From an uncultured Bacteroidota bacterium (GTDB lineage: Bacteria; Bacteroidota; Bacteroidia; Chitinophagales; Saprospiraceae), in NCBI GenBank assembly GCA_903933805.1, contig CAIZLM010000220.1, positions 1-48,169 on the forward strand: a DNA stretch of 48,169 nucleotides, in the 5' to 3' direction. The number at the start of each line of letters is the position of its first letter. Within the stretch, counting starts at the first letter, position 1. This document shows, piece by piece, positions 5,691 to 48,169 of this stretch. Position numbers and translations under genes: made by a program. The notes below the pieces were generated by a model. The model saw nothing but the letters and a program-made list of their open reading frames with translations, had not been told where the DNA came from and made no database searches.

Positions 5691-5769
5691 GTAACTGGTT
5701 AGCGTGGTCGAGTCTGAGACAAAAAAATGGGCCTTTTTGGGCCAGACAGCGTGCCACCTAACCAGTTAC
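5691..5769 (-). mobile_element. MITE-like element, short form (copy A), perfect 8-bp TSD
   Basis: 79 bp, starting GTAACTGGTTAG and ending with its reverse complement CTAACCAGTTAC. It is flanked by perfect direct repeats AAATAAAC at 5683-5690 and 5770-5777, taken as a target-site duplication. Orientation is defined by the arm carrying CTGTCTGGC, here on the right. It lies in the probable 5' leader of the LysE-like gene. Confidence 0.9.
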
Positions 5770-5863: not shown

Positions 5864-5940
5864 GTAACTGGTTAGTTGGTCGTGTTGGAGACAAAAAGGT
5901 GACCATTTTGGACCAGACAGCGTGCCACCTAACCAGTTAC
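5864..5940 (-). mobile_element. MITE-like element, short form (copy B)
   Basis: 77 bp with the same GTAACTGGTTAG...CTAACCAGTTAC ends and in the same orientation as copy A. Flanks are TTTCTACC (5856-5863) and ATTCTACC (5941-5948), a 7/8 direct repeat. It lies between the promoter box at 5840 and the start codon at 5956. Confidence 0.88.
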
Positions 5941-8951: not shown

Positions 8952-9114
8952 GTAACTGGTTAGCGTTGTCGCGTCTGAGACAAAAAAGTGGCCATTTTTT
9001 GCCAGACGAAGCAGATTTTTGTAGGCCGTAGCAGCGCTAGGGTCAAAAAAATCTGCGAAGTATGGCGGAAAATGGGCCTTTTTGGGCCAGACATTGTGCC
9101 ACACAACCAGTTAG
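8952..9114 (-). mobile_element. MITE-like element, long form (copy C), perfect 8-bp TSD
   Basis: 163 bp between perfect direct repeats GTTATTTT at 8944-8951 and 9115-9122. The ends are GTAACTGGTTAG and ACAACCAGTTAG. The core carries the inner palindrome GGCCGTAGCAGCGCTAGGGTC that distinguishes the long form. It lies in the leader region of the GtrA gene and starts 9 nt after the DUF6438 stop. Confidence 0.92.
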
Positions 9115-14962: not shown

Positions 14963-15076
14963 GTTACGGGTTAGGTAGCGCCCCGTCTTGCCCTAAAAAG
15001 CGGTTTTTTTGTCTCAGAAGACGACTGCCCAACTGTTTGCAAAATTGGTCCAGATAGCATACCAACTGACCAGTTA
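14963..15076 (+). repeat. Degenerate MITE-like element(s) (copy E)
   Basis: 14963-15040 follows the short form from end to end (GTTACGGGTTAGGTAG..., TTTTTTTGTCTCAGA, ...CAACTGTTTGC) with many substitutions. 15041-15076 repeats the right-hand part (GTCCAGATAGCATACCAACTGACCAGTTATT), so two old copies may be merged here. No clear target duplication is left. It lies between mvaS and the Asp-box gene. Confidence 0.65.
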
Positions 15077-18536: not shown

Positions 18537-18613
18537 GTAACTGGTTAGGTGGTCGCGACGGAGATGAAAAAGTGGGCCTTTTGGGCCAGAGAGCGTGCCT
18601 CCCAACCAGTTAC
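18537..18613 (-). mobile_element. MITE-like element, short form (copy F)
   Basis: 77 bp, ends GTAACTGGTTAG and CCAACCAGTTAC. Flanks TATTCAAG (18529-18536) and TATTTGAG (18614-18621) match at 6 of 8 positions, an aged target duplication. It lies in the probable leader of the cobalamin adenosyltransferase gene. Confidence 0.85.
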
Positions 18614-35220: not shown

Positions 35221-35279
35221 GCAACTGGTTGGGCGGCACGCTGTCTGGCAAAACATGGCCACTTTTTTGTTTCAGATGT
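35221..35279 (+). repeat. Truncated MITE-like element in the purH leader (copy I)
   Basis: Starts GCAACTGGTTGGGCGGCACG and continues CTGTCTGGCAAAACATGG to TTTTTTGTTTCAGATG, matching the left 59 bp of the short form. The right terminal repeat is missing. It lies between the purH promoter box and ATG. Confidence 0.75.
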
Positions 35280-41034: not shown

Positions 41035-41113
41035 GCAACTGGTTAGCGTGGTCGCGTCTGAGGCAAAAAAGTGGGTCTTTTTGGGCCAGACAGCGTGCCA
41101 CCTAACCAGCTAA
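41035..41113 (-). mobile_element. MITE-like element, short form (copy L), perfect 8-bp TSD
   Basis: 79 bp, ends GCAACTGGTTAG and CTAACCAGCTAA, flanked by perfect direct repeats AGACAACA at 41027-41034 and 41114-41121. It has inserted between the sucD stop and the terminator, so it is transcribed in the 3' end. Confidence 0.9.
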
Positions 41114-42538: not shown

Positions 42539-42699
42539 GTCACTGGTTAGGTGGTCGCTTGTGATATAAAAAAGCGACCATTTTTTGCCAGGCGAAGCGG
42601 ATTTTTGCAGGCCATAGCAGCGCTACGGTCAAAATAATCTGGAAAGTATTGCGAAAATGGCACTTTTTTGGTCAGTTACATTGCCCCTGACCAACTTGC
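42539..42699 (-). mobile_element. MITE-like element, long form (copy M)
   Basis: 161 bp with diverged ends GTCACTGGTTAG and GACCAACTTGC. Flanks GTCTTTAA (42531-42538) and GTCAATAA (42700-42707) match at 6 of 8. The inner palindrome GCCATAGCAGCGCTACGGTC of the long form is kept. Confidence 0.85.
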
Positions 42700-46857: not shown

Positions 46858-46865
46858 TATTTTTG
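46858..46865 (+). promoter_or_regulatory. -7 box adjoining repeat copy P
   Basis: TATTTTTG fits TAnnTTTG; its last base is the first base of copy P. If active, it would transcribe the whole element into the leader of the gene at 47112. Confidence 0.4.
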
Positions 46866-47025
46866 TAGGTGGTTGGTTGACACGCTGTCTGACCCAAAAA
46901 GGCCCGGTTTCCACCATACTTCGCAGGTTTTTTTGACAGTAACGAGGCTATGGCCTGCAAAAATCTACTTCGTCTGACAAAGAATGACCACTTTTTTATC
47001 TCAGATGCGACCACTTCACCAGTTA
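46865..47025 (+). mobile_element. MITE-like element, long form (copy P)
   Basis: 161 bp, with a diverged left end (GTAGGTGGTTGGTTGACACG) and a right end TTCACCAGTTAT. The long-form core is present (inner palindrome around GTAACGAGGCTATGGCC). Its flanking 8-mers match poorly, so the duplication has decayed. It lies between the symporter gene and the PorV-like gene. Confidence 0.82.
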
Positions 47026-47111
47026 TTTGTTAACTTCGTAAATGGTTGGCTGGCATGCCAACGTAATTTTTCAACAAATTAACCCTGCTTTGCGCACCAA
47101 ACCCCTTCACC

Positions 47112-47942: not shown

Positions 47943-48020
47943 GTAACGACTCGGGTGACACGTAGTCCGTCCAAAAATGGTCACTTTTTTGTCTCAGACG
48001 CGACCACGCTAACCAGTTAT
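47943..48020 (+). mobile_element. MITE-like element, short form (copy Q)
   Basis: 78 bp with a diverged left end GTAACGACTCGGGTG and an intact right half (TTTTTTGTCTCAGACGCGAC and GCTAACCAGTTAT). Flanks TGTAAAAC (47935-47942) and ATTAAAAC (48021-48028) match at 6 of 8. Confidence 0.85.
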
Positions 48021-48028
48021 ATTAAAAC

Positions 48029-48169
48029 GTAACTGGTTAGGTGGCACGCTGTCTGGCCCAAAAAGGCCCATTTTCCGCCATACTTCGCAGATTTTTTTGA
48101 CCGTAGCGCTGCTACGGCCTACAAAAATCCGCTTCGTCTGGCAAAAAATGGTCACTTTTTTGTCTCAGA
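48029..48169 (+). mobile_element. MITE-like element, long form (copy R), cut by the window end
   Basis: Starts GTAACTGGTTAGGTGGCACG, 8 bp after copy Q. It holds both internal direct repeats (GTCTGGC at 48051 and 48136, 85 bp apart) and the inner palindrome CCGTAGCGCTGCTACGG. The window ends at GTCTCAGA, about 22 bp before the expected right end. It is the cleanest long copy and was used as the reference orientation. Confidence 0.9.

Follow-up and report, generated by a model that had tools for sequence, protein, structure and literature searches.

MITEs derived from an IS are an already known kind of element, and two described families are among the closest comparisons for those analysed here, which were first noted in a stretch of 48,169 bases corresponding to the whole of contig C220 (the window). 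According to the accessible text of its description, MITECca01 of Cardinium is derived from IS982 and amounts to 169 copies and 3.5% of the chromosome (PMC9769881). As described there, it resembles the window MITEs in being IS-derived, gene-less, abundant and mostly intergenic, but it belongs to another IS family, has an intact parent IS present and reaches a lower copy number. MITEPsy1 of Pseudomonas syringae, as far as the available portion of its description goes, shares with the window MITEs a length of about 100 bp and the lack of genes and has been shown to move in vivo, whereas it differs in its 4-bp duplication, its probable relationship to IS5 and its total of six copies (PMC3189936). 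An IS66-derived MITE was not found in the literature covered, which included the accessible parts of these two papers and of PMC12888890 and PMC3281130, with subscription papers and ISfinder outside this scope. Within IS66 itself, ISBst12 is listed as a subgroup in the available text of PMC8024623. The single-ORF tnpC group of IS66 agrees with this system in its TnpC (DDE_Tnp_IS66 together with zf-IS66 or DUF6444), its GTAA.. ends and its 8-bp duplications, but the elements in the window encode nothing, their partner being a separate element in relatives and present as fragments in the host. The likeness to classical IS66 (tnpA-tnpB-tnpC), of which the host has an example on contig C216, is limited to the GTAA ends and the TnpC domain; it is about 2.4 kb long with three ORFs, and the MITE ends do not match it, differing from the fifth base onwards.

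The feature in question, at 48029..48169 on the forward strand, comprises bases 1-141 of a 163-bp palindromic MITE and is truncated by the contig end. It matches the 163-bp consensus at 140 of these 141 bases and begins with the 12-bp end GTAACTGGTTAG at 48029-48040; as it stops after base 141 of 163, no target duplication can be looked for around this copy. The description of this element in an earlier note stands, with one detail to be amended: its neighbour at 47943..48020 is a second, older element, located exactly 8 bases away. This neighbour is a short-form MITE of 78 bp in the same forward orientation (profile hit 47951-48019), whose right-type end faces the left-type end of the truncated copy (L177) across the spacer ATTAAAAC (48021..48028), which is also the left flank of the cut element. 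Allowing up to 2 mismatches, GTAACTGGTTAG has 21 matches in the window, compared with a mean of 2.28 and a maximum of 8 in 100 shuffles. Profile hits and flank comparison locate further short-form copies, all on the reverse strand, at 5691..5769 (perfect 8/8 duplication of AAATAAAC), 5864..5940 (flanks 7/8), 18537..18613 (flanks 6/8) and 41035..41113 (8/8 duplication of AGACAACA). A long-form copy at 8952..9114 (reverse strand; profile hit and sequence) is flanked by an 8/8 duplication of GTTATTTT, and two diverged long-form copies are found at 42539..42694 (reverse strand; profile hit 42540-42693, right limit approximate) and 46865..47026 (forward strand; profile hit 46866-47025, ends judged by eye). 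The profile also detects a partial copy at 35222..35277 and a partial or decayed one at 14966..15032, both on the forward strand, the latter with a 0/8 flank match for the bounded 115-bp span. There was no Rfam match in the window at the gathering level.

The host genome (G000; 4,206,178 bases in 336 contigs, 97.43% complete) contains 597 copies of the exact end GTAACTGGTTAG (302 forward, 295 reverse) against 2 for a reversed-pattern control. A stricter 17-mer, GTAACTGGTTAGNNTGG, occurs 252 times in this genome (133 + 119) and once in the relative G025, and is absent from the remaining 58 members of a 60-genome set. Element anatomy was studied in 407,679 sampled bases, made up of the window and 20 stretches picked on contigs known to carry ends; within this sample 40 full elements are bounded by GTAACTGGTTAG-type ends with up to 2 mismatches. 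Twenty of these belong to a long form (161-165 bp, mode 163) and 17 to a short form (77-84 bp) whose consensus is that of the long form without its centre. Their 8-bp flanks are identical in 19 of the 40, agree at 7/8 in 6 and at 6 or fewer positions in 15; at control lengths of 5, 6, 7, 9, 10 and 12 bp the corresponding score was 0/40, with 3/40 at 4 bp and 1/40 at 11 bp. No frame of the 163-bp consensus is open throughout, each of the six being broken by one or more stop codons. These data confirm what the earlier note had observed, namely that the elements start with GTAA, generate 8-bp duplications and contain no coding sequence.

Many of the MITE copies are old, because 15 of the 40 flank pairs match at only 6 or fewer of 8 positions. 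A profile search of the sample recovered 91 full or partial copies covering 9,392 of the 407,679 bases (about 2%), with identities to the consensus ranging from 80% to 99%; the family has therefore been active for a long time and until recently. Two scalings of the sample give an estimate of 876 to 939 copies, which is possibly high as the stretches were pre-chosen for ends, while the 597 exact ends set a floor of about 298 elements, and the family thus amounts to several hundred copies. Only 11 of the 91 hits lie mostly within simple ORF calls, which cover 87% of the sample. A preference for a particular gene context was considered and none is clear, the 72 intergenic hits being divided into 45 tandem, 14 divergent and 13 convergent against a background of 165, 48 and 53 in the simple ORF calls. 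In summary, the elements are short and gene-less, have terminal inverted repeats, a high copy number and a duplication of fixed length, and share their ends with IS66 elements in four relatives (G009, G020, G016 and G025) and with fragments in the host, as is expected of MITEs. The family also breaks the host assembly. In two other genomes, palindromes of ~45 bases bounded by GTAACTGGTTAG and a near complement (L046 in G006, L044 in G030) are perhaps the smallest members.

The earlier note had proposed an IS66-like partner carrying matching ends elsewhere in the genome, and had suggested looking for a TnpC-like gene between such inverted repeats. A partner of this description is present in the genus (G009, G020, G016 and G025), with an IS66 TnpC bounded by GTAACTGGTTAG in G009, G025 and G020, but the host genome itself yielded only fragments and nothing intact. 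The exact end was found in 14 of 42 genus genomes (host counted), although a reversed control also matches in 17 of the 42, so that some single exact 12-mers in relatives could be chance; a PF03050 match was obtained in 11 of the 42. The clearest case is G009, where just two exact copies of GTAACTGGTTAG, 3,130 bp apart, bound one IS66 element with the identical 8 bases TTTTCAGA outside both ends (duplication 8/8). Its TnpC is a 423-codon frame matching DDE_Tnp_IS66 (PF03050) with E=1.6e-32. Two IS1 copies in the same orientation break the tnpC of this element (L089:579-3708), close to either end of the gene, and the IS1 domain was detected in one of them. The ORF list for the locus comprises tnpC and the two IS1 copies only, without the neighbouring tnpA and tnpB of classical elements. 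Since related elements in G007 measure only 1,471 bp, the partner is of the tnpC-only kind of IS66 and not classical. It combines a TnpC of the IS66 family with GTAA ends and 8-bp duplications, and presumably belongs to the ISBst12 group.

The other relatives contain the partner in varying states. G025 has a 1,050-bp element with GTAACTGGTTAG ends and flanks matching at 6/8, whose TnpC (PF03050, 5.1e-21) is internally deleted and 79-82% identical to that of G009 over two aligned blocks. In G020 all 12 exact ends run into tnpC and all are 116-127 bases from contig ends; six enter tnpC at its start, where 20 aa are 100% identical to G025, and the remaining six at its end (38 aa, 89%). Six end pairs are possible, and in five of them, paired by eye, the 8-bp flanks are exact reverse complements of one another. 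This is the pattern expected from some six copies of a single element that carries 8-bp duplications and was left unresolved by the assembly. All nine ends in G016 share an IS66-like continuation (CCTGATT.., CCTCTGG.. and one ACTCTGG..); eight of the contigs stop within 23 bases of the end and one reaches tnpC. A fifth genome, G032, was rejected as a source of the partner: it has an exact end with an IS66-like continuation, but the tnpC match behind it is untrustworthy (E 0.27). Among these genomes no intact tnpC with exact GTAACTGGTTAG ends was read, the G009 and G025 copies being broken and G020 providing contig ends only. The genus thus displays intermediates of the partner, from intact-looking multi-copy ends (G020) through an IS1-interrupted copy (G009) and a deleted one (G025) to fragments (host).

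In the wider order, 10 of 396 genomes have a TnpC match with an E-value no higher than 1e-40. Seven of the 24 loci scanned have GTAA ends and 8/8 flanks, the rest having weaker bounds or none. Bounded TnpC-only elements with 8-bp duplications end in GTAAAAACTTAG (G007), GTAACTATTCAG (G157) and GTAACTACTCAG (G192), and a further bounded element has ends GTAACTATTTAG/GTAACTGTTTAG with flanks matching at 6/8. Because these ends differ between relatives, this IS66 group has a characteristic 12-bp end that varies among its members, GTAACTGGTTAG being the variant of the elements in G009, G025, G020 and G016. The G007 genome carries six 1,471-bp TnpC-only IS66 copies (L132, L142, L145, L148, L081 and L082). 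A perfect 8-bp duplication was seen in four of these six, and the element is a good candidate for an active relative.

Traces of IS66 in the host are of more than one type. PF03050 has three matches there, on contigs C216, C186 and C180. The first is the classical 2.4-kb element, with ends GTAAGCCTCCCACGAACCCC, and was discarded as a mover of the MITEs on account of the difference from the fifth base on. The second is a fragment resembling it (L032:936-1350), with an end GCAAGCCTCCCAAGAACCCC, that begins within a MITE starting GTAACAGGTTAGGTGG; apparently an IS66 element of one type inserted here into a MITE belonging to a different type. The third is a TnpC-only element with ends GTAACTATCCAG. 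Searching with the G009 TnpC revealed four more tnpC fragments, one on C332 (63% identity over 68 residues), two on C104 (58% and 56% over 36 residues) and one on C274. The last scored only E 0.6 with the G009 TnpC but E 8e-14 with that of G025, and was confirmed by 81% DNA identity over 226 bases to a C104 fragment. All four fragments abut GTAACTGGTTAG or a one-mismatch form of it, and no clear 8-bp duplication was found around them. The C104 copies retain the tnpC start together with a piece resembling the tnpC end, which we read as what an internal deletion would leave. At the right end of the C274 fragment, 39 bases are identical to the MITE end, providing a direct link between tnpC and the MITEs. 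The MITE interior is not tnpC-derived; with the exception of C274, the 12-bp end alone is common to the MITEs and the IS66 elements read.

The window element is thus very probably a copy of a non-autonomous MITE family spread by the TnpC of a single-ORF IS66 element, a reading that rests on the ends, the 8-bp duplications, the copy number, the genus IS66 element with the same ends and the tnpC fragments in the host. In this scheme the 12-bp end would serve as the recognition site of the TnpC, elements of roughly 79 bp and 163 bp would be excised or copied, and their joining to staggered cuts in A+T-rich intergenic DNA would give rise to the 8-bp duplications. Because no intact IS66 element with GTAACTGGTTAG ends was found in the host assembly, we infer mobilisation in trans by the partner's TnpC, and the partner would now be lost from the host genome or unassembled.

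A different mover would have to account for the same ends. Duplications of 8 bp are also made by other transposase families, and one of these could move the MITEs if GTAACTGGTTAG were shared with IS66 by convergence or chance. The earlier note had named the discovery of another transposase with these ends as a result that would count against IS66, and none was seen, PF03050 being the one transposase family model with which G000 was searched. That single-model search leaves this explanation some room, but every exact 12-mer end in G009 (2/2) and in G020 (12/12) belongs to an IS66 element, and the tnpC fragments of the host adjoin ends of the GTAACTGGTTAG type, so that we regard it as very unlikely. 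Similarly improbable is that the C180 element moves the MITEs. Its TnpC (453 aa) is the sole intact-looking one of the group found in the assembly, its ends agree with GTAACTGGTTAG at 8/12 positions and its flanks recur at two further contig ends, which may indicate several copies. However, the four mismatched positions are central and set it apart from hundreds of MITE ends, the genome has only four exact copies of GTAACTATCCAG, compared with two hits for the control, the flanks of the element itself agree at 3/8, and its TnpC is 29% identical to the G009 protein, which does have exact ends. Near the ends of contigs C49 and C63 an exact GTAACTATCCAG is present (L183, L184), which points to another copy of the C180 element that the assembly missed.

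Both size forms of the MITE are near-complete palindromes and fold as full-length hairpins (short form z -7.7 and -6.6 on the two strands). A related family of 161-162 bp is found in G014, of the same genus, with the same ends and a similar hairpin but a much changed sequence (L063, L170, L171). Comparing one copy per family, 30 of 46 predicted pairs are unchanged, 8 are changed on both sides, 3 on one side, 4 are broken and 1 is gapped; as this alignment also served for predicting the structure, the comparison is biased towards pair retention. A secondary role for the hairpin is possible. To our knowledge, REP elements moved by Y1 proteins make no target duplications. The view that these are REP/RAYT-type or other structural repeats acting through RNA or DNA hairpins, and not transposons, draws on the folding, the intergenic placement and the pairs kept between two species, but is hardly credible given precise ends with 8-bp duplications and IS66 elements that carry the same ends. 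The outcome that the earlier note had said would count against the IS66 reading, the absence of any IS66-like element from the genome and its relatives, is not what was found.

The spacing of exactly 8 bases seen at the end of the window recurs elsewhere in the genome. Exact ends facing each other across 0-30 bases occur at five places in G000, all spaced 8. When up to 3 mismatches were allowed and spacings of 8 and 9 were searched, there were 21 junctions at 8 bp, that in the window among them, versus 0 at 9 bp. Orientation was examined for 16 of the 21: ten could be fully typed by their inner sequence and all ten are head-to-tail (left-type with right-type), while the other six could be typed on one side, several having a bare 12-17-base end with no recognisable body behind it. 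A flank test of 15 junctions showed that in 10 the spacer equals the other flank of one member (7 or 8 of 8). Both members are bounded in five of these ten, and in all five the flank-matching member is the less diverged one, which indicates that the later copy inserted exactly 8 bp from the older end. The exceptions are L176, L182, L121 and L179, without a spacer-flank match, and the window junction, where the element is cut; L176 and L182 have no duplication on either side. A further pair (L110) is spaced about 19. On contig C63 (L112:3184-3350) two MITEs are separated by 11 bases and each is followed by the 11-bp direct repeat GTAAAATCATT, the single case of a longer repeat.

The target itself is weakly defined. 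In 25 rebuilt target sites, counting outward from the duplication, T is favoured at -4 (0.64) and A/T at -2 (0.92) and -1 (0.88), with the mirror image on the other side and a preference for A+T-rich DNA. The terminal TTAC of the element agrees with this preference at positions -4 and -2. Half-sites of this kind are too frequent, however, to account for 21 junctions versus 0, and a weak target sequence was therefore rejected as the full cause of the tandems. Movement of the pairs as a composite unit is likewise disfavoured, since the outer flanks agree at 7/8 in only one of seven fully bounded pairs, and in that pair (L180) all three flanks are T-rich. It appears that an incoming copy integrates at a distance of one duplication length from an end already in place. 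Tentatively, and with slightly less than even confidence, we propose an end-directed mode of target choice in which a resident end, possibly no more than the bare 12 bp, is occupied by a transposase that captures a target 8 bp away in head-to-tail orientation. A literature search on target choice by IS66 transposases found nothing. Across the genus, these MITEs would represent an IS66-type family tied to a defined partner. The head-to-tail rule is the unexpected part and is worth testing, as a fixed 8-bp distance in a single orientation leads to a specific prediction for target selection by IS66 transposases.
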